The notes beneath the pieces are model-generated. The model made no database searches, was not told the origin of the DNA, and saw nothing but the letters and a program-made list of their open reading frames with translations. 21,887 nucleotides of DNA from a virus, in the IMG/VR virus record IMGVR_UViG_3300032308_000697, positions 1 to 21,887 of that record; one strand, given 5' to 3'. This document shows, in pieces, positions 7,985 through 20,660 of this stretch; position 1 is the first letter of the stretch, and each line of letters opens with the position of its first letter. The position numbers were made by a program, and so were the translations under genes.

Positions 7985-10444
7985 TTACGCACCGATTTCT
8001 GAGAAGTTAATCGCAGAACGAGCAGCAACGAAATTGAGAGTGATAAAGTTGATAGAACGATTTGGCTTAACGAAGATATCAGCAACGAATTCGTTACGAT
8101 CGATAACTTCACCTGTGTTGTTAGACTCATCGCACTTAACAACGAAATCAGTAATACCACGACGACCTTGGACATCACGGAGGAATGGCTCGACTAAGTT
8201 CTTGAACTGTGCACGAGTAAATCCATCGTTGAATTCGAACAACTGGAATTTTGCAGCAGTAGCAATCGCTTTTTCCATAACAATGAATAGGCGACGAACA
8301 TTAATACGATCAAACGCACTTGGTTTAGCCAAGAGAGTCTTATCACCAAACATGACAGTACCTTCTCCTGGGAATGTAACAACAGGATTGACACCAGACT
8401 TGTAAAGCATATCTCTTTGTGTTTTGCTTGGATTGAATGCCAACTTAACAACATTCTTAATTTGACCACGATTTAGACCACCTGGAGAGAACCATGGATC
8501 ATTAGTGTAATCAGTACGAGCACATAGACCAGCAATGTCGCCATTCAATGGAACATAACGGTATCTGTCGTTGTAGCGATCATATTGATACTTGTAACCA
8601 GAATCAAGAACTGCATAAGAAGTAGATGGCAATGCATCACGGTATGCAATAATTGCATTCTGTTCAGTAGAAGTAGAACCAATGATTGGATCAGCACTAG
8701 AAGTACTCTGTGGAGATACAAACGCTACGCAATCTAAACGAGTTTCGCAGATGTTATTGATAATGTATGTTGCAGTTGCAGCAGTTGCTTTACCAGCCAT
8801 AATTAAACTAATATCATACTGTTCAGCATTAGCAAACAATGCAAATGCAGACTGTAACTCGCCATCAGTTGGCACGAAATCATCAGTACCACCAGCTAGA
8901 GAAATAGCAAGTGGTGCAGTTAATAATTTGAAACTTGCGCCTGCAGCAGCAGAACCCCATGCAGTAGTACCAGTAACAGCAGTTGGATGATCCATCCACC
9001 AAATGTATTCTGAACGAGCATTCAATACATTTTTATAGTAGTTATTAGTGCCATCAGGTTTTTTAGCATCAGATGCTTTAGAAACATAAGCAAATTTTTC
9101 TAGGATAGTACCTCTTGTTCCAGAGAATGCGCCATCTTCATCGATAATGATAATATGCATTTCATCGTTAACACTTGCGCCAGTAGTATTAACTGATGCA
9201 GCGTATGTAGAAGTTCCTGGAGCAGAATCAAACTCATCTTTGTATGTCCAAGTGCTAAAACCAGCAGAGTCAGCTACAGCAACTCTTAAGGAGTTACCAA
9301 GAGTGCCTGCATACTTTGCAGCAAAAGAACCAACAATACCAGCACCATTTACGAAACTACTATTGTATGTTTCACCATTAGTGATTTTTAAGCCAGCAGT
9401 AGTAATTGTATTATCTATAGTAGCAGTAGTGCCAGATGGAGGACCAGCAACAGTGATTGTTGGAGCAGTTGAATAACCAGAACCAGCAGTAGTAATTGTT
9501 GCAGCAGAAATAGTTGAAGAAGCAACAGTGACTGAACCAGCAGTAGCATTACCAGCTGAGAATGTAGCAGTAACAGTACCTTTGTATCCTGTGCCACCAG
9601 CAGTAACAGTAACAGAAGCAACTGATTGGTTTGAATTATTACTTAATGTTAAACCAGTTGTAGTACCAGCAGTAGTAACAATAGCAACATCAGCAGTAGT
9701 AGTTAAAGTAAATCCAGTAACAGAAGAACCACTACCAGTAATAGCAGAAACTTTGTATGTAGTTGGAGTTGAGTAACCAGTAATAGTGGCAGTACCACTA
9801 ATTGTACCAGAAATAGCAATTAAATCTCCGACAGCTATAGTAGTTGCAGTACAAGTAAATTGACCACCAGTACCAGAAACAGCAGAACCAGAAATAGTTG
9901 CTGGTGTAAGAACTGCAGTAAATGTTGCACCAGTACCACCAGATGGAGCAGAAAGTGTTACTGACGGAGCAGTAGCATAACCAGATCCACCAGAAGAAAC
10001 TGCAACAGCAGTAATCGCACCACCAGAAAGAGTTACTGTAACAGCAGCTTGTATACCACCATCAATATCAGGTGCACCAACTGTAACAGCAGGTGCTGCA
10101 GCAGTAGAAGAGTAACCAGAACCAGCATTTTGTACAGTAACAGTACCAAGACCGCCAGTTGTGGTAGCAACAGCATTCAAAGATCCAGTGTCAGCACGAA
10201 CTAGTAATAGATTGTTTGTATAAGATAGGAAGTTCGCAGCTGTGAAAAAAGATTGGAAATTGCTATCGTTTGGTTTACCGAAGCGACGAACTAATTCGTT
10301 CTCCGAGCTAACTGTCACAGGCTCCAATACTGGACCCCATGGAAATACCCCAGCAAAAGCACCAATAGATGATGATACGGCTGGAACGATAGAAGTGAAA
10401 TCTTTTTCTACGACTGCAACGCCTGGAGATAATTGGAACGGCAT
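7985..10444 (-). CDS. 18: Tail sheath protein gp18 with large insertion
   Basis: An 819-residue contractile sheath subunit, far longer than T4 gp18 (659). The N-terminal PFQLSPGVAVVEKDFTSIVP and FGKPNDSNFQSFFTAANFL, and the C-terminal domain with TQRDMLYKSGVNPVVTFPGE, DRINVRRLFIVMEKAI and VVKCDESNNTGEVIDRNEF, are diagnostic. Residues about 98-349 are a Gly/Ser/Thr/Ala-rich beta insertion. It holds four copies of a GSGY or GTGY-centred repeat near residues 108, 153, 284 and 321 and a different beta module at about 183-269. The normal sheath sequence resumes at GLKITNGETYNSS. AAGGAG lies 9 bases upstream of the ATG. Confidence 0.95.
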   Translation of the reverse strand: MPFQLSPGVAVVEKDFTSIVPAVSSSIGAFAGVFPWGPVLEPVTVSSENELVRRFGKPNDSNFQSFFTAANFLSYTNNLLLVRADTGSLNAVATTTGGLGTVTVQNAGSGYSSTAAAPAVTVGAPDIDGGIQAAVTVTLSGGAITAVAVSSGGSGYATAPSVTLSAPSGGTGATFTAVLTPATISGSAVSGTGGQFTCTATTIAVGDLIAISGTISGTATITGYSTPTTYKVSAITGSGSSVTGFTLTTTADVAIVTTAGTTTGLTLSNNSNQSVASVTVTAGGTGYKGTVTATFSAGNATAGSVTVASSTISAATITTAGSGYSTAPTITVAGPPSGTTATIDNTITTAGLKITNGETYNSSFVNGAGIVGSFAAKYAGTLGNSLRVAVADSAGFSTWTYKDEFDSAPGTSTYAASVNTTGASVNDEMHIIIIDEDGAFSGTRGTILEKFAYVSKASDAKKPDGTNNYYKNVLNARSEYIWWMDHPTAVTGTTAWGSAAAGASFKLLTAPLAISLAGGTDDFVPTDGELQSAFALFANAEQYDISLIMAGKATAATATYIINNICETRLDCVAFVSPQSTSSADPIIGSTSTEQNAIIAYRDALPSTSYAVLDSGYKYQYDRYNDRYRYVPLNGDIAGLCARTDYTNDPWFSPGGLNRGQIKNVVKLAFNPSKTQRDMLYKSGVNPVVTFPGEGTVMFGDKTLLAKPSAFDRINVRRLFIVMEKAIATAAKFQLFEFNDGFTRAQFKNLVEPFLRDVQGRRGITDFVVKCDESNNTGEVIDRNEFVADIFVKPNRSINFITLNFVAARSAINFSEIGA
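9398..10153 (-). repeat. Repeat-bearing insertion within gp18
   Basis: This stretch encodes the extra sheath residues 98-349. Units of the form GSGYxxxPxVTV recur, for example SGGSGYATAPSVTL and TTAGSGYSTAPTITV, with diverged copies at GSGYSSTAAAPAVTV and GGTGYKGTVTATF. The DNA is visibly low in complexity, dominated by Ala, Gly, Ser, Thr and Val codons. The same module occurs in gp14. Confidence 0.8.
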
Positions 10445-12096: not shown

Positions 12097-12843
12097 TTAG
12101 AATCCGTCCAACCAACTCTCCGTATCAACAGTTGCAGTAGTGACATCACCATCTGCAGTATAAACTCTATTTGGATTACTGAAGTCTTCATTTTCACCAA
12201 CATTAGCATTAACTTCTTGAATAACATTTCTACCAGAGATTGGTCCAAACAGATTCATCTTCATTTGAAAGTTAAGACTATGTGTCACAAATCTTCGCAT
12301 TTGAAAATCACCATCGTAGTCGTCTTGAACTGACACGCTATTTAAAACAATTGGCACATCAATCTTAACATTCATGTCTGGCACAACATTAATTGATAAT
12401 GTATACTCAGGTGTAAATGTAGGAAGTATTTGTTCGATGATTTGTAGACCATCCTCTTGAGTTTTTGTGAGGATGTATAACGACAAGTCTAGATTATATG
12501 GAACAGGAGTGTACATAGTAGATACTGCACCAGTACCATCACCACACTTCAACTGTTGCATACGATTTACTTTTCTTTGAGGATCGTAGTTGTATCCAAT
12601 AATCTCAAAAGACATTCTTGGAAGAGTAGTATAAACATGATTCTCCAAAGATGGATCTTGATCTAAACGAACAATCCATTTTTCTTTTGGAGCATACGCA
12701 AGAGGTATTTGTAATCTTTGGATAACTGTACCAGTTACAGAATCACCTTCACGACGATCGATATAGATGTCGCTGAATAGTGAACCGAATCCTACAATGC
12801 ACTTGCGAATGATTCCGTGATAGTATACATTACTGTTTAACAT
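12097..12843 (-). CDS. 15: Tail sheath stabiliser / tail terminator gp15
   Basis: A 248-residue protein (T4 gp15: 272). Typical family segments are YYHGIIRKCIVGFGSLFSDI near residue 7, a QRLQIPLAYAPKEKW motif, RMSFEIIGYNYDPQRK, and VPYNLDLSLYILTKTQEDG followed by QILPTFTPEYTL. gp15 forms a hexamer that caps the tail tube and sheath and provides the surface joining the tail to gp13 and gp14. Its start overlaps the gp14 stop (TAATG). It sits between gp14 and gp17. Confidence 0.9.
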   Translation of the reverse strand: MLNSNVYYHGIIRKCIVGFGSLFSDIYIDRREGDSVTGTVIQRLQIPLAYAPKEKWIVRLDQDPSLENHVYTTLPRMSFEIIGYNYDPQRKVNRMQQLKCGDGTGAVSTMYTPVPYNLDLSLYILTKTQEDGLQIIEQILPTFTPEYTLSINVVPDMNVKIDVPIVLNSVSVQDDYDGDFQMRRFVTHSLNFQMKMNLFGPISGRNVIQEVNANVGENEDFSNPNRVYTADGDVTTATVDTESWLDGF

Positions 12844-13769
12844 TATGGGTTATTTTCTCTATCAATTTCGCCGAATGGATTTGTTACACTAAACAATACA
12901 TCTTGTGCTTCTGTTTTAAATTTATTATTATCACCGAAAGACTCTGGTTTATCAATATTGATATCAATAGAAGCGGTTGCCAGAGCACCTGCACCACCAC
13001 CACCTGATATTGTAATAACTGGTGCGACTTGATATGCAGTTCCTGGATTAGTTATATCAATGCGAATAATTTTATTTGCATTAGCTCCAGTTCCACGAAC
13101 TGCAGTGGCAGCAGCATCACGACCAGTACCACTCGTGAATGATACTGTTGGAACAGAAGTATATCCAGAACCAGTTGCAGTCATTGTAATCTTAGTGACT
13201 TCGCCTGTAGGAGATCTTGTTGTATTTGTAGTGAATGTTTTAAGAGTTTCAAATGCATCAATCTCAGAAATACCAGTATCAATTTTCTCAGAAGCATACT
13301 GGAACAATTCAACTTGTAACTTAAACACATATAGTTTACCAAGTTGATAGAATGGATCTTGATGTTTTACAAACTTAATTTCAAATAAACCTTTAGTTAA
13401 TGGAAAGTAAATTAAATCGCCTTCGCATGGGCGAGTAGGAATAATTGTTTGTCCATAACGACCAACCAACTGATCCCATCTACGACGAGCAACTACCAAT
13501 GTAGCTGACTGCTCCATCATAAGACCAAACTTCTGAATAAAAGCACCTTGTCCATCAAGTGAGTCTACATTCTCAAAGTACATTTCAATTGGAAATGATG
13601 ATGTAAATTTTGATAGACGATCTTCACCAAGAATCTCGTCTTTAGAAACTAATGTTCTTGGAATGTACATGAACTCATTACCGTAAATCTTAAGAGATTC
13701 GATAATGAGATCTTCGACTAGGTACTGTTCGTTTTTAGTACCATGAGAAAAATAAACATTAGTAGGCAT
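12843..13769 (-). CDS. 14: Neck protein gp14 with inserted repeat module
   Basis: A 308-residue neck protein (T4 gp14: 256). The N-terminal two thirds is family-typical: NEQYLVEDLIIESLKIYGNE, YIPRTLVSKDEILGEDRLS, MYFENVDSLDGQG, FGLMMEQSATLVVARRRW and a GLFEIKFVKHQDPFYQLGK segment. The C-terminal NKFKTEAQDVLFSVTNPFGE is also recognisable. Between them, residues about 185-272 are a beta-rich insertion with GSGYTSVPTVSFTSG and a diverged GTAYQVAPVITISGG, the same module as in the sheath insertion. gp14 works with gp13 to close the filled head and accept the tail. Confidence 0.9.
   Translation of the reverse strand: MPTNVYFSHGTKNEQYLVEDLIIESLKIYGNEFMYIPRTLVSKDEILGEDRLSKFTSSFPIEMYFENVDSLDGQGAFIQKFGLMMEQSATLVVARRRWDQLVGRYGQTIIPTRPCEGDLIYFPLTKGLFEIKFVKHQDPFYQLGKLYVFKLQVELFQYASEKIDTGISEIDAFETLKTFTTNTTRSPTGEVTKITMTATGSGYTSVPTVSFTSGTGRDAAATAVRGTGANANKIIRIDITNPGTAYQVAPVITISGGGGAGALATASIDINIDKPESFGDNNKFKTEAQDVLFSVTNPFGEIDRENNP
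12954..13217 (-). repeat. GSGY-type module inserted in gp14
   Basis: Encodes gp14 residues 185-272. It holds two units of the pattern G-(S/T)-(G/A)-Y-xxx-P-x-(V/I)-(S/T), each followed by a Gly/Ala-rich loop. Units like these are also found four times in gp18 of this phage. Confidence 0.75.
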
Positions 13770-13772
13770 CTA

Positions 13773-14729
13773 TTATCCCATGAAGAAATCTAGAGGTGCT
13801 GACTTATTCTGCAGTTCGTCTTCGAGTTCTTTTATTTCTGTAGTGGCTTCATCGTAAAGTTTATCACCATCCAGAGTTACACCACCTGGAAGTTGAATAC
13901 CAGAGAATTTCTTAATGTTTGTTGCCCATTGTTTTTTAAACAATGCAGTAACATAGTGCTTCAACCATGGCTCGTTGTATACTTTAGACCATGTTGTTGG
14001 ATCCATTGCACGATAAGATTGAACGATAATGTGATCACCCAGAATAAAATCAGTCGCCCAGTTAGCGTCTAGATATAAACGACCATTCAAACGATTAAAT
14101 CTAAATCCTTGATGACCATTTAACTCTAAATCTAATAGAGCCAAGTGTGACATAACTGTTTTGTAGTAGATTAAAGAAGTAGATGTTAAGTCATACAAGT
14201 CATTTAATCTTAATTGATATTGCAAGTCGAAGATGTTCTTTGAAGAAGATGCTTGACCCATACTTAGAATCTTTGTAACACCCCAAACATAATCAGGAAC
14301 TTCAACATAACGATTATCATATTCACGAAGTGTAATAGAAGATAATGTTGCGTTGTGCCCTGCAGAACCAGTGATTGCTTCGCCAGCTGTAAAAGTTCCA
14401 GTAACATTTCTAACTAACAATAAAGTGCCTGAAGAAATTCTGCTGGATTCTCTACAAACTTCAGCAGTTGCACCAGAAGTTGCTCCAGTAATTCTTTCTG
14501 CTAAGTCAAAATTTGCAGCAACAGAAGTAGTAAGAGTAACTTCAGACGCACGGATTTGCTGTTTAAGATAAATCTGTTCCACACCTTCGTAGTGATAGAG
14601 TTTCCAGTAGTCTAATGCTTCATCAATGCGGTCTTCGATTTGATCATCGTCCACATTAATCTCGAGCACTGGTGCGCCCAATGCTCTTAACGCATAGTCT
14701 TTTAATCCAGATCTTGTTGAGACAGCCAT
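13773..14729 (-). CDS. 13: Neck protein gp13 with inserted domain
   Basis: A 318-residue neck protein (T4 gp13: 309). The N-terminus LKDYALRALGAPVLEINVDD followed by DQIEDRIDEALDYW, and later segments RYVEVPDYVWGVTKIL and FDLQYQLRLNDLYDLTS, are typical of gp13 in aquatic T4-like phages. Residues about 62-135 interrupt the pattern with a beta-rich stretch (ITGATSGATAEV, then GTFTAGEAITGSAG) that resembles repeat modules of phage fibres. gp13 binds the portal after packaging and, with gp14, forms the neck. The gene starts one base after the fibre gene stop, with AGGT as ribosome site. Confidence 0.87.
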   Translation of the reverse strand: MAVSTRSGLKDYALRALGAPVLEINVDDDQIEDRIDEALDYWKLYHYEGVEQIYLKQQIRASEVTLTTSVAANFDLAERITGATSGATAEVCRESSRISSGTLLLVRNVTGTFTAGEAITGSAGHNATLSSITLREYDNRYVEVPDYVWGVTKILSMGQASSSKNIFDLQYQLRLNDLYDLTSTSLIYYKTVMSHLALLDLELNGHQGFRFNRLNGRLYLDANWATDFILGDHIIVQSYRAMDPTTWSKVYNEPWLKHYVTALFKKQWATNIKKFSGIQLPGGVTLDGDKLYDEATTEIKELEDELQNKSAPLDFFMG

Positions 14730-14730
14730 T

Positions 14731-17454
14731 TTAGTTACCTAACTTTGCTTTAAGTTCTTCGATTTGTTTTTGTTGTTCTTTAATCGCTTCAACTAACAAT
14801 GGAACAAGACGCTCGTAATGCAGAGTCATGTATTGTGGATCGATTGGAGCAGGAGCAATAACTTCTGGTAGCACCGATTGAACTTGTTGAGCCGATAAAC
14901 CAACTTCTTCTTTAGAAGCATCGTAACCCAATGCCACTGCAGTTTCGTTTGCATGATAATGGAAACCATCAAGAGAAAGAACTTTCTCAAGAGCATTTTG
15001 AATGTTACCAGTTTTAGTTTTTAAACGATCGTCAGAGTAGTAAGAAGTGATTGCATTCGTTGCACGAATCTCACCAGAAGTTCCAGATGCTGCAGTTCCA
15101 ACACCGAAAGAACCAAACTGAACAGAGGTTGCTGTACTACCTGAAGATAATATTGTTCCAGTATGATCTGGAAATGTAAATGTTCTATCTGCGCTCAATG
15201 TAGCTGGTGTGAGAATCACTTCCCAGTTACCAGTACCACCTGCACGACCACGAATCTCAATACCATCTTGAGTAGATGCAGCACGAGCAAGAGCACCACC
15301 ACCAGTAAGAGTTAATGATGTACCAGTCGCTGCACCAATATTTGGAGTAGTTAAAGTTTTATTTGTTAATGTCTCAGTACCAGCAATAGTTGCTAAAGTA
15401 CCAGTAGTTGGTAGTGTAACATTGGTAGAATCAGAAGTAGTTAAAGTTAAACTATGCCCACCAGAAGTAATTAAACTGCCACCATTAGAAATAGTTAGAG
15501 TAGCTGAAGACGCTGGCTCAGTAATTGTAACTTTATTAACAGCAGTGAGTTTAATAGAATCGTATGTTGCTCCAGTAAAATCTACTGTAGTGCCAGCGGT
15601 TGGTGCATTAGTTGGCGCACTAAAGAATTTCCAAACACTATCAGTTGCATCTTTAACTAAGCCAGTATATAATGTTGTTGAAGCTGGTTTATATTCTCCA
15701 ATAATACCAATGTCTTTAGTATTACCAGTTGCGCCATCGTTTAGATATACAGCAGAATCAGAAACAGTTAATGCTGAAGATGCTTCAGTGGTAGTTGTAC
15801 CTTGAACTGTTAAGTTACCAACAATTGTTACATTTTTCTGGAATGTAGTTGTGGCACCAGCAGAACCAGAACCAATAGTGAGGGTAGTCGCTGCAGTCGC
15901 TAAGTTAACTGTGGTAGCGTTGGCAGTTAATGCATTAAATGTAGTGGCAGTAGTAGTTAAATCACCACCATTGACAGCCAAATCACCAGTTAGAGTTGTG
16001 TTACCAGTCACTGCAAGAGTACCACCAATAGCAGTGTTACCAGTAGTATCAGCAACCGTAAACTTATCCGTGTCCATGGTAAGACCACCATTAAGGACAG
16101 TGGCACCTGTTACAGTTAATGTAGTACTAGCAGTAATAGCTTTTGCAGCTAATGTAGTATTGGCTACTGTTAAAGTACCAGTTGCAGCACCAAGATTCAG
16201 CGCAGTTGCAGCACCGAAAGCATTAACAGTAGTGGCAGTAGTATTAAACACATTCTGTGTTGTTTGTGTCCCAACTAGTGTACCAGTATAATCTTTAAGG
16301 TTTGTTCTATTCCATTGACCAATTTGAGTAGCTGCATCACCACCAGCATTCTCAGCATAAAAATCTAAATCACCATTTGAGTTACCAGCAGATGTTTCTG
16401 CTTGGATATAAGTAAAACCATCTACAGATTTAACACCACCGAGAGATGACCATGCACTAGATGAATAACCCTCAAATGTAGATTGAGTAGTATTGTAACG
16501 AATCATACCATTTGCTGCAACATATGGTCGTTGAGCAGTCGTGCCAGTTGGAACTTGTAAGAATCCAAAAGTAGTAATAGAAGTAATAGTACCAGTAGTT
16601 GGTATTGTTCCACCAGTAACTGTTACAGTAATGCTAGTTCCAGAAACAATGCTTGCAACTAATACGCTTGTAGGAGAACCACCAAATAGAGTTCCAGTAC
16701 CACCAGTTGCAGTAATATTTTGCCCAACCATAATACCAGTAGTTGATGACATACCAGTAATCGTTGCTGTCCATGGACCAGTACCAGTAATAGTTCCAAC
16801 TGTTCCATTACCATGACTTCCATTAGCCATTGTTATAGATCTTACGCCAGCAAAAGAGGTTGTAGTATCACCAACCTGTGCTGCAGTACTACCAATAGTT
16901 AAAGCAGAAGTAACCCAAGAAGGAGCAGTGGAAGCACCAGTAGAACGAAGAATAAATCCTGAATCTCCTGGAGCAATAAATCCAGTAGTATTTGTATCAG
17001 TCTGGTACATTAAGTAACCAGCAGAACCACCAGCAATGTTAGTTGCAGTAGTTGCAGTAGTTGCAGTACCAGTAGAAAGAGCAGAAGCATTAACCCATGT
17101 TGGACCAGAAGTTCCACCAGAAGTAAGAACTTGACCAGAAGTACCTGCAAGAGACAAACCAAAAGCAGAACCACTTGAATATACAATAGCACCAGCTACA
17201 CCAGTAAGAGCAGCTCCAGTTCCACCATAACCTAAAGCAATAGCGTTACCGTTCCAAATGGAACTTGTGCTCATTGTTTTATTGGTAAATGTTTGCGTGG
17301 CTGTAAGAGTTGGAATAACTTTACCACCCGCAGTTGATCCATCATGGATGCGTAAAGTATAAACATCAGTATCAACTGTTATTTCACCTTGTGCACCAGT
17401 GAATGCATTATTTTGAGAAGTAGTTCCTCTTCTAAACTGTACTTGGGTTGCCAT
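14731..17454 (-). CDS. Tail fibre with S74 intramolecular chaperone
   Basis: A 907-residue fibre-like protein. Residues 1-48 match the Mtd-type N-terminal domain (QFRRGTT, GEITVDTD, RIHDGSTAGG). The middle is Gly/Ser/Thr/Ala-rich repeats, including TNKT repeats, a GTGPWTATITGM module (about 224-290) and a VPTGTTAQRPYVAANGMIRY segment near 301. The C-terminus from about 795 is an S74 endosialidase-type chaperone with YYSDDRLK (Ser807, Lys812), EEVGLSAQQVQSVLPEV and a terminal coiled coil (EQQKQIEELKAKL). Such domains drive trimer folding and then cut themselves off just before the serine. A GGAAT ribosome site precedes the ATG. Receptor or target is unknown. Confidence 0.88.
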   Translation of the reverse strand: MATQVQFRRGTTSQNNAFTGAQGEITVDTDVYTLRIHDGSTAGGKVIPTLTATQTFTNKTMSTSSIWNGNAIALGYGGTGAALTGVAGAIVYSSGSAFGLSLAGTSGQVLTSGGTSGPTWVNASALSTGTATTATTATNIAGGSAGYLMYQTDTNTTGFIAPGDSGFILRSTGASTAPSWVTSALTIGSTAAQVGDTTTSFAGVRSITMANGSHGNGTVGTITGTGPWTATITGMSSTTGIMVGQNITATGGTGTLFGGSPTSVLVASIVSGTSITVTVTGGTIPTTGTITSITTFGFLQVPTGTTAQRPYVAANGMIRYNTTQSTFEGYSSSAWSSLGGVKSVDGFTYIQAETSAGNSNGDLDFYAENAGGDAATQIGQWNRTNLKDYTGTLVGTQTTQNVFNTTATTVNAFGAATALNLGAATGTLTVANTTLAAKAITASTTLTVTGATVLNGGLTMDTDKFTVADTTGNTAIGGTLAVTGNTTLTGDLAVNGGDLTTTATTFNALTANATTVNLATAATTLTIGSGSAGATTTFQKNVTIVGNLTVQGTTTTEASSALTVSDSAVYLNDGATGNTKDIGIIGEYKPASTTLYTGLVKDATDSVWKFFSAPTNAPTAGTTVDFTGATYDSIKLTAVNKVTITEPASSATLTISNGGSLITSGGHSLTLTTSDSTNVTLPTTGTLATIAGTETLTNKTLTTPNIGAATGTSLTLTGGGALARAASTQDGIEIRGRAGGTGNWEVILTPATLSADRTFTFPDHTGTILSSGSTATSVQFGSFGVGTAASGTSGEIRATNAITSYYSDDRLKTKTGNIQNALEKVLSLDGFHYHANETAVALGYDASKEEVGLSAQQVQSVLPEVIAPAPIDPQYMTLHYERLVPLLVEAIKEQQKQIEELKAKLGN

Positions 17455-17477: not shown

Positions 17478-17485
17478 TATTTATG
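17478..17485 (-). promoter_or_regulatory. Possible late promoter before the S74 fibre (CATAAATA)
   Basis: CATAAATA on the minus strand overlaps the stop codon of the upstream 1059-residue gene and lies 23 bases before the fibre ATG. It fits the NATAAATA pattern with a plausible short leader. Confidence 0.5.
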
Positions 17486-20400
17486 CTTGCGCTTCTGACC
17501 AGAATAAGTTAATATTCACATTGGCTGCAGTTCCATCGACAACAGTAATTGTTCCACCCATGGCACTATGGTTTTGGCAAATATAATATAGGGTGTTTGG
17601 TGCGTCTATATCAACAGTCCATGTGATTGTTCCAACATCATCTCCGTTGTTAGTTACTCCAGTATTATATGCATCTCCAGTACCAGTTGTTGCAGCAGTT
17701 TTAATCCAGAAAGGATGTCCAGAAGCATTTACTGTAAATGTATATGTTTGTCCTCTAACAACTGTAATTGCAGGATCTGCATACCCATTTAAACGATAAG
17801 AACTAGAAGAAGTGTGTCCAACTTCATATGATGTTATTCCAGTTGGAAGAGGTCTAACAACGATTGCCAATACATCGGGACCATCTGGAAAGTTAGAATA
17901 TCCACCAATAGCTGAGTTTGACAATTCTTTCAAACTAGATAAGTCAATCTCAGAAAATCCATTAGGCTGACCCAATGTTGAGAAAATTTGTTCTCCAGGA
18001 TCTGCTGCATAAGTTACACCACGAGCAACTTGAGCAAAAGATGGTTGAGAACCTAATGCCACAGTGTTAACAGAATCCCATGTTAAATCAGTTGCAGCAT
18101 CGATGTTGCTTGGGTTTAACACACCATAAACTTGAACTGACTGATTAGACTGAACTTGAAGTTTTTGTAATAATAATTGAGAACGATTCACTAAATCTCT
18201 ATCACCAAGATTTCCTGAAATAGAGTTTGATACTGCTGGAGCTAATCTAATAGCAAATACAGTATGGGCATCACCAGTTGGAATTGTTTCATTTAAAGCT
18301 GCATATGAGAAGTAGTATCCACGATCTGTATCGAAACCACCATCCATAATATAAGAAGATCCCCAGTGATTTAATGTTGGCGCAGCAGTACAACTAATTA
18401 ATAGAACAGCTGTATGTCCATTACCTGCAGCATGAGATGCTGCAGAACCACCAGTAAATGTTTTATTAATACCACCAACGAACATAGTAAACGATGCACC
18501 ACGAGTACATCCAGTTAATGAATTTGTACCAGTATTAACACCAGTAAAAGTAATACATTCATTTTCAATAAGAACTACACCACCATTTACAGGGAATCTA
18601 GAAACATCTAGTACTGGAATAGTAGTGACAGAACTATTAATAGAAGATGCTAGTTCTCCATTTACTGATTCATTAATAGTTTGATAACGAACAGCAGTGT
18701 TACCTGAACGCATGTACGCTTCATCATTAATATTATTTTGTTTCATGCGATGAGCAAGAATCATGTTGCCGTCTGGACCACGGCACATAAAGTCAATAAA
18801 ACCAGCACCATACCACGAAAATGCAATACCCATCATTTGCATTTTATTTAAGTTAATATTATAACCCGAAATGCCAGTTCCATCTAAAGCATCAATATTA
18901 AACTCTGACTGAGGTACACGATAGTCAATAACTGTTGCTAATTTAATACCAACTGAAGAATTAATACCACGATATGCAGGATTAATTGTCATATTATTAT
19001 CATCAGCAATAGAACCTACCATGTAGGTCATTCCACGAATAACAATACGATCACCAACTTTAAGTTGTTGAGTGAAACGACCAGAACTAGCTGTGACAGC
19101 TTGAGATCCTGGAGTTACAGTACAGAAACCAGAAATTTGATATGTCGAAGATCGTTTAACAACTGCTAATTCTTTACCATCAAATTCCCAGAACAACCCG
19201 TTTTGATCATCGAAAGCACCCATACGAACAGATGCACCATGCCAGAACTTTAAAGTGACACGAGGTAAATTTGTAATAACAGCAGTAGTAGACCCTAGTG
19301 ATGATGCAGCAACTACAGTAAATGTATTCTCACTAGTGACAGTATTGATACCATATGTTCCATTATATCCTGATGTAATAACACCAGCTATTTCAACAGT
19401 TGCTCCGACTTGAAGACCATGATCAAGTTCAGTTGTTACAGTAATAAGAGAACCCGCAGATGTTCCTGCAGCGGAAATTTGGTCAAGGTTCATAACAGGG
19501 TTAAATAAAACACCCGAAGTCCAAAGAATACCCTTACCTGATTGATAACGCATATACTTTTTAGTCTGGCGAGAAACAGAAGCACCATGAGATGGAACAA
19601 AATTACCAAGCTGAACACCACCATCAAATGGGCGATGTAATATAAATGCGTCTGAACGAGTATATAATGTTAAATTAATGCCACCACTTGATACTGCGCC
19701 ACCTACACGAGCAGTGAAAGTAAAGGTTGTTGGCGATGGAACTGATTCTGCAAAAAAGTTACCTGTTAGTAATCCATGATTAGTTCCACTAGAAGATACA
19801 ATACCAATTAATGGAGCACCTGGAACTAAACCATGATTTGCATAACATGTAACAGTAATCACTGATGGATTGCTTCCATCTGATGTTACTGATTCAACTG
19901 GTAAATCTGAACCAGAATAAAAACCACCACGACGACCATAAGTAGATCCACCAAAAATTGATAGATTATCTGTACCAACAATACCCTTTGCATAGTAAGT
20001 GAAACTTGTTGGTCCAGGAACACTAGAAATAACAAACGCACCCTCAGCACGAGCGTAATTTGTAGTTCCAGTTAAACCATATAGAATAACTGGATCTGCA
20101 ACTGACAATCCATGTGCAGCAGATGTTGTAACTGTAATTAATGATGGAGATGCACCATCAGTTCTTACATTAGAAAGAAATAAATCTAATCCTGGTTTTT
20201 CATAAATTCCAGGAATATTACGGATGTCTGTATAGTTCTGCCACTTAGTTGGTTGTAGACCATATTCAAAGTCAGCGTCAATTAATGACTGTGGATTGGC
20301 AACACGCATTCTCTCAATGGCATCAACACCCATGGCATATGGGCGAACAATATTACCAATATTTTTTGGAGCGTCAGTGTAAATAGCGATTTTGTCGTTT

Positions 20401-20660
20401 GACGACATTGTTGAAGTATCATATGTAAGAGTTACAGTTGTTACACCTTCCTGCTCTGAGAAAAATCCTGCATTTTCTGTGGAACTATATGTAACAGTTC
20501 CGCCACGAGTTGGATCTCCAATGGCGTAAATATTATTCTGTGAAGTTTTATTTGCAATAATCAATAGTTGGGTTGCATCAACTTTTCCAGGGAATTTTAC
20601 ATACCCTGAATTAGCAACATCTGGAGAGAAAATATATTTTTCAACTAATTGGCGAGCCAT
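17481..20660 (-). CDS. Large virion structural protein with cupredoxin-like end
   Basis: A 1059-residue protein of the kind found among tail-appendage genes of aquatic T4-like phages; its T4 counterpart is unclear. The N-terminus (MARQLVEKYIFSPDVANSGY) and RPYAMGVDAIERMRVANPQS near 106 look conserved. Three related units of about 57 residues (168-225, 260-318, 396-452) share an ITVTxxxxHGLxxG start and a TxFT-type end. The centre holds a beta-rich region with LKFWHGASVRMGAFDDQNG (470-488). Residues about 957-1047 resemble a cupredoxin: His982 in GHPFWI, then Cys1028, His1031 and Met1034 in YYICQNHSAMGG. AAGGA lies 6 bases before the ATG. Fibre or baseplate adaptor is the likely role. Confidence 0.82.
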   Translation of the reverse strand: MARQLVEKYIFSPDVANSGYVKFPGKVDATQLLIIANKTSQNNIYAIGDPTRGGTVTYSSTENAGFFSEQEGVTTVTLTYDTSTMSSNDKIAIYTDAPKNIGNIVRPYAMGVDAIERMRVANPQSLIDADFEYGLQPTKWQNYTDIRNIPGIYEKPGLDLFLSNVRTDGASPSLITVTTSAAHGLSVADPVILYGLTGTTNYARAEGAFVISSVPGPTSFTYYAKGIVGTDNLSIFGGSTYGRRGGFYSGSDLPVESVTSDGSNPSVITVTCYANHGLVPGAPLIGIVSSSGTNHGLLTGNFFAESVPSPTTFTFTARVGGAVSSGGINLTLYTRSDAFILHRPFDGGVQLGNFVPSHGASVSRQTKKYMRYQSGKGILWTSGVLFNPVMNLDQISAAGTSAGSLITVTTELDHGLQVGATVEIAGVITSGYNGTYGINTVTSENTFTVVAASSLGSTTAVITNLPRVTLKFWHGASVRMGAFDDQNGLFWEFDGKELAVVKRSSTYQISGFCTVTPGSQAVTASSGRFTQQLKVGDRIVIRGMTYMVGSIADDNNMTINPAYRGINSSVGIKLATVIDYRVPQSEFNIDALDGTGISGYNINLNKMQMMGIAFSWYGAGFIDFMCRGPDGNMILAHRMKQNNINDEAYMRSGNTAVRYQTINESVNGELASSINSSVTTIPVLDVSRFPVNGGVVLIENECITFTGVNTGTNSLTGCTRGASFTMFVGGINKTFTGGSAASHAAGNGHTAVLLISCTAAPTLNHWGSSYIMDGGFDTDRGYYFSYAALNETIPTGDAHTVFAIRLAPAVSNSISGNLGDRDLVNRSQLLLQKLQVQSNQSVQVYGVLNPSNIDAATDLTWDSVNTVALGSQPSFAQVARGVTYAADPGEQIFSTLGQPNGFSEIDLSSLKELSNSAIGGYSNFPDGPDVLAIVVRPLPTGITSYEVGHTSSSSYRLNGYADPAITVVRGQTYTFTVNASGHPFWIKTAATTGTGDAYNTGVTNNGDDVGTITWTVDIDAPNTLYYICQNHSAMGGTITVVDGTAANVNINLFWSEAQA
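17520..17792 (-). other. Cupredoxin-like domain in the 1059-residue protein
   Basis: Encodes residues about 957-1047. The pattern is a distal His (codon 17715-17717) followed by C-x2-H-x2-M (codons between 17559 and 17579), with the G-G and beta-strand context seen after the loop in amicyanin and pseudoazurin. All four type 1 copper ligands are present in the expected order. Copper binding is not demonstrated by sequence alone. Confidence 0.7.
19305..20159 (-). repeat. Three HGL-type protein repeats in the structural gene
   Basis: Three diverged units at 19986-20159, 19707-19883 and 19305-19475 encode ITVTTSAAHGL, ITVTCYANHGL and ITVTTELDHGL starts. They end SVPGPTSFTYYA, SVPSPTTFTFTA and TVTSENTFTVVA. 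The similarity is at protein level; the DNA copies are too diverged to be a recent duplication. Confidence 0.75.

Follow-up and report, generated by a model that had tools for sequence, protein, structure and literature searches.

A type 1 ligand set near the end of a virion structural protein

Cupredoxins are familiar as electron carriers and as oxidase domains, and the locus analysed here raises the question of what a complete set of type 1 copper ligands is doing in a phage structural protein. The window (the whole stretch of viral DNA that was analysed, 21,887 nt) is a T4-like structural cluster in which fibre genes, the gene for a 1059-aa protein, gp13, gp14, gp15, terminase and sheath are found together with genes for tube, portal, protease, scaffold and major capsid protein, the gene names being assigned partly from their order. 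The 1059-aa ORF (17481..20660, minus strand) encodes the protein of interest, which matches the PHROG_5838 profile ‘virion structural protein’ over residues 2–701 (E 5.8e-240) and is 33–47% identical to virion structural proteins of the cyanophages S-CAM1, S-PM2 and Syn1. On the same strand lie a neighbouring tail-fibre gene (14731..17454), whose product has Mtd_N at its N-terminus and a Peptidase_S74 chaperone at its C-terminus, and gp13-like (13773–14729) and gp14-like (12843–13769) neck genes, and the genes flanking the S-CAM1 homologue are similarly arranged (tail fibre – structural protein – gp13 – gp14 – gp15). The neck genes put the 1059-aa protein in the T4-like fibre-to-neck region; judged from homology and gene order, its position in the virion would be the fibre, the baseplate or the neck.

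In the translated ORF the four residues of interest lie exactly where the original prediction had placed them, all encoded on the minus strand: His982, the putative first Cu ligand, within GHPFWIK (17715..17717), Cys1028, the putative thiolate ligand (17577..17579), His1031, the putative second His ligand (17568..17570), and Met1034, the putative axial ligand (17559..17561). The ligand loop reads C-x2-H-x2-M, and the distance from His982 to Cys1028 is 46 residues. This loop spacing had been likened to both amicyanin and pseudoazurin, and only the first likeness stands, as C-x2-H-x2-M is the amicyanin spacing while pseudoazurin and plastocyanin have C-x2-H-x4-M. The His-to-Cys distance is close to that of plastocyanin (47 residues, H37/C84). 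Cys1028 is the sole Cys within the domain, and a lone conserved Cys points to a ligand rather than a disulphide. When the whole protein was shuffled, the pattern H-x25-70-C-x2-H-x2-M was found in just 19 of 20,000 shuffles.

The domain is predicted to be a distant member of the cupredoxins

Forty-eight viral domain copies were aligned, and the domain was modelled with AlphaFold2. The model comprises residues 945–1042 (17535..17828, minus strand) and is all-beta, with eight strands, zero helices and a pLDDT of 93.3. His982 (H38 of the domain) is located just before the fifth strand (residues 40–43), Cys1028 (C84) at the end of the penultimate strand (79–84), His1031 (H87) within the following loop and Met1034 (M90) at the start of the last strand (91–97). 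In the model this layout is the canonical cupredoxin topology with respect to the places of the His, Cys, His and Met ligands, so the cupredoxin-like domain that had been proposed from the letters alone is upheld by the predicted structure. The limits that had been given for it, 17520–17792, need correction, the domain being a little longer.

A Foldseek search of the PDB with the domain model gave 49 matches at E ≤ 1e-3, and among the 50 matches listed all are cupredoxin or multicopper-oxidase domains, including rusticyanin, plastocyanin, azurin, pseudoazurin, amicyanin (3ply), CuA and CueO; several of the matched pseudoazurin and azurin structures have engineered amicyanin-type or shortened loops. 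The TM-scores against solved cupredoxins are only ∼0.5, which indicates that the domain is a distant member of this fold. With a model of the full-length protein the cupredoxin region again matches plastocyanin (7pcy, probability 1.00), and the search for the fold of the parent with this model returned no confident match.

Profiles of copper-protein families, which the original prediction had named as one check on itself, fell short of their curated cut-offs. Pfam PF00127 (Copper-bind) scores 19.3 bits with the domain and 14.0 with the whole protein (cut-off 21.2), the sub-threshold match spanning most of the domain, and the NCBIfam amicyanin model TIGR02657 scores 13.7 bits (E 0.061), far below its equivalog cut-off of 110.2. 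Pfam PF25489 (At5g54830-like) likewise stays below its cut-off of 27, with 22.2 bits (E 1.5e-4). Assignment by Pfam and NCBIfam was therefore set aside as a sole guide, since these sub-threshold scores would leave the domain without a family. At the level of sequence, phmmer with the domain found no useful match among PDB sequences, while a profile search of the same sequences gave weak matches, mostly to copper proteins aligned at the Cu loop. A profile–profile comparison with phage plastocyanins was non-significant, the 20 aligned columns being the copper loop and the plastocyanin alignment being too shallow.

Among known copper proteins, amicyanin shares with the phage domain the cupredoxin fold and a C-x2-H-x2-M loop entering the last strand, but it is a free periplasmic electron carrier encoded by its own gene, whereas the phage domain is nested in a virion protein. 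The plastocyanin/azurin family (PF00127) is alike in fold, ligand set and His-to-Cys spacing; in contrast to plastocyanin, the phage domain has a loop shorter by two residues and is part of a larger virion protein. Small beta-sandwich proteins of similar predicted fold are also found in giant viruses (Pithovirus, Marseillevirus; BFVD matches A0A481Z6J5, A0A481YVH3 and others).

The predicted cupredoxin interrupts the last hairpin of its parent and is optional

The domain had been described as the C-terminal end of the protein and as the tip of a tail protein, of which the first does not hold and the second needs rewording. Residues 1043–1059, which end in INLFWSEAQA, are not part of the cupredoxin and contain the final parent strand, and the ending NLFWSEAQA is common to homologues that lack the domain. 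Homologues of the first 700 residues are in fact mostly without it and end in ...DGPDVLAIVVKNLSSSTATVNVNLFWSEAQA, while in the window the hairpin that links VLAIVV to NVNINLFWSEAQA contains a cupredoxin of ∼100 residues. In the AlphaFold2 model of the full-length protein the parent strand preceding the insertion is formed by residues 930–937 (17850..17873, minus strand) and the last strand following it by residues 1046–1056 (17493..17525, minus strand); in the domain-less relatives the corresponding strands are joined by a hairpin segment of 12–14 residues. Of 67 distinct variants of this ending that were sampled, 60 have the 12–14 residue segment and about seven the domain. Even the nearest relative of the window protein (89% identical) is without it, and on the parent tree the carriage of the domain requires at least four to five changes. 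The cupredoxin is an optional, nested insertion that interrupts the final beta-hairpin of the parent and is patchily distributed across the parent family.

The cupredoxin is itself interrupted, just before the first His, by another beta-rich stretch of ∼90 residues in L350 (5001–8462) and L363 and, it seems, in L264. Nesting in these proteins is two levels deep, and their axial Met is replaced by Asp.

The ligands are mostly retained, and one viral lineage has lost both His together

As the second viral scan and the cellular scan used patterns that contain the ligand residues, ligand counts from the 137-sequence set are biased, and the H-C-H-M set seen in 126 of these 137 sequences (85% redundancy) comes from a sample partly found through such patterns. 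A motif-unbiased set of 23 relatives is made up of phage isolates found by whole-domain tblastn and of carriers identified by their N-terminal 700 residues. In this set His982, Cys1028 and His1031 are invariant (23/23) and Met1034 is retained in 22/23, the remaining one having Asp, which agrees with the expectation that homologues would not freely lose single ligands. Retention reaches relatives at ∼30% identity, the greater part of the domain being variable: only six columns of the motif-unbiased set are invariant, three of which are ligands, and of the 99 columns the 12 with the highest conservation include all four ligands (∼1.3e-4 by chance). The domain of phage C48C1, among the most divergent (32% identity), keeps GHPF...CSLHSNM, and comparison of the window with the closely related carrier L230 gives a dN/dS of ∼0.04. 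Strong purifying selection on the ligands argues for a bound metal, and copper is the natural candidate for a His2-Cys-Met site.

One viral lineage has a degenerate site, with F, Y or L in place of His982, Q in place of His1031 and partly Ser in place of Cys1028 (motifs FCQM, FSQM, YSQM and LCQM). These sequences form a single clade with 100/99 support, so both His were lost together, once. In L044, L046, L049, L052, L065 and L070, which belong to this lineage, the domain lies at ORF residues ∼204–308 and provides a natural control free of the metal site.

If the domain were a structural relic, that is a cupredoxin-derived beta-sandwich decoration whose ligands survive by ancestry and which is metal-free in the virion, then the fold alone should suffice, and in the degenerate lineage it does seem usable without both His and partly without Cys; frequent gain and loss of the domain in the parent family is in keeping with this as well. 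A relic would, however, be expected to show losses of single ligands, whereas the loss is concerted and confined to a single clade, and the ligands stay invariant over a range of divergence in which most of the domain varies. We therefore regard a relic as unlikely.

Asp at the place of Met1034 is found in L004, L264, L350 and L363, relatives that share the parent protein, and might mean another metal in these proteins. A different metal, zinc or iron, with a purely structural role like that of iron in the T4 gp37 fibre tips, would have a precedent in the iron-binding HxH motifs that occur in T4 gp37 and in marine phage tail fibres (PMC11705849). Those fibres are similar in that metal-binding residues are carried by phage tail proteins, but they bind octahedral iron via HxH and have no cupredoxin site. 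The His2-Cys-Asp set created by the replacement would suit zinc, and a zinc-holding cupredoxin-like domain (4hcg) is among the PDB matches. Against this stands the axial Met of nearly all motif-unbiased relatives, a residue that prefers copper to zinc, and we consider a purely structural zinc or iron distinctly improbable. The Asp-for-Met relatives and the site-less lineage together indicate that type 1 copper is not required for the domain to exist.

Two candidates for the loss of a single ligand, L163 (DCHM) and L183 (ICHM), were set aside, as they resemble misaligned weak matches. A Lentisphaerae sequence with NCHM, from a cellular protein, is apparently a real single-ligand loss.

The domain is widespread in marine cyanophages and occurs in cells

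The domain is not peculiar to this phage: tblastn with it matched 339 phage records, nearly all of them marine cyanophages. Fold and site are known ones; their setting is new, and the domain is commoner than had been supposed. Many of the matched cyanophage proteins are annotated as gp9, the baseplate wedge/tail fibre connector, and in the Kyanoviridae genera checked the domain terminates gp9, usually a protein of ∼400 residues. Consistent with this, the PHROG_677 profile (cyanophage gp9) matches the domain at its positions 308–410 of 412 with 94.2 bits (E 2.2e-26). The C-terminal domain of gp9 belongs to the same domain family, keeps the ligands and is likewise part of a virion protein; it differs in that it ends a protein of ∼410 aa, while in the window the domain sits in a hairpin of a different structural protein of ∼950 aa. 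A copper fold of the gp9 domain is unmentioned in its annotations and in the literature found, and this unexplained domain now gains a name and a testable chemistry. Further carriers are other fibre proteins of cyanophages, the podoviruses P-SCSP2 and P-GSP1 and the Pelagibacter phage HTVC028P.

Cellular relatives with the same ligands come from Flavobacteriaceae, Alphaproteobacteria and marine Euryarchaeota, and it is likely, we infer, that phages and bacteria share a pool of extracellular domains. Relatives in Flavobacteriaceae (L174, L185 and others) have intact ligands, and their proteins also contain CHRD or Lipoprotein_15 secreted repeats.

The protein encoded after gp9 in cyanophages, annotated as a baseplate wedge subunit in some records, shows weak partial cupredoxin matches and C-x2-H-x2-M loops, e.g. 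YYYCQYHQHMSG (L311 3241–6231, L309 3319–6309, L315 3325–6306 and L084 3334–6324). It may be a further virion cupredoxin, and a divergent one.

A complete type 1 ligand set in a predicted cupredoxin fold, carried mostly by phages of photosynthetic, plastocyanin-using hosts, could also suggest a redox-active carrier or a mimic of host redox proteins that docks to, or exchanges electrons with, host plastocyanin or cytochrome at adsorption. The same domain is, however, found in a Pelagibacter phage and in proteins of Flavobacteria and archaea, host redox proteins are located within the envelope, and for electron carriage cyanophages have a separate, clear-cut plastocyanin gene (petE) with strong PF00127 scores. 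With no redox partner evident outside the cell and with some carriers infecting non-photosynthetic hosts, we consider electron transfer very unlikely. That an unrelated beta domain carries H, C, H and M by accident, a reading to which the sub-threshold family scores might lend themselves, can be dismissed in view of the fold match, the ligand invariance and the rarity of the motif in shuffles.

A metal-stabilised display module is the favoured reading

The explanation that we favour, and hold to be probable, is that the domain is a true cupredoxin with an intact type 1 ligand set, inserted in a hairpin of a structural protein from a T4-like aquatic phage and serving as a metal-stabilised display module of the tail or baseplate. 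In such a model the site would bind copper, or some other soft metal, acquired inside the host or from the surrounding water, and the metal would lock the small beta-sandwich into a rigid module. This module would sit on the tail or the baseplate/fibre apparatus and may help to attach fibres or to contact the host surface. As the ligands are almost unchanged in the cyanophage relatives, virus particles with the domain probably carry bound metal. That the domain is often gained and lost, and that it sits in a hairpin, speaks for an accessory display part, and its role is probably stability or host-surface contact rather than electron transfer.

Ig-like domains are the familiar case of optional beta-sandwich modules inserted on the surface of phage virions, and the cupredoxin would be an accessory part comparable to these domains, which are scattered over phage virions; unlike the phage cupredoxin, they are without a conserved metal site. 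No report of a cupredoxin in phage tail proteins emerged from our literature search, which covered mostly papers available without subscription. In the passages located in a review of T4-like cyanophages, plastocyanin is mentioned solely as the petE gene (PMC2984593).

In phage tail and baseplate proteins a cupredoxin fold with an intact ligand set appears as a module that can be transferred. Should it bind copper, the assembly or adsorption of phages would depend on trace-metal chemistry, analogous to the ‘Ferrojan horse’ idea for iron, and this link is testable on existing laboratory cyanophages. A much broader claim, that marine T4-like phages widely carry functionally required, metal-loaded virion cupredoxins in gp9 and related tail proteins and that their stability or adsorption is copper-dependent, is one we put forward tentatively and regard as possible but doubtful; if virion cupredoxins were indeed widely metal-loaded and required, phages would constitute a marine copper pool.

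Inserted segments are also seen elsewhere in the window. The tail sheath (7985–10444, 819 aa) and the gp14-like neck protein (12843–13769) have similar inserted repeats of the form GSGYxTxPxV, which also match other phage structural families and represent a second kind of mobile decoration.
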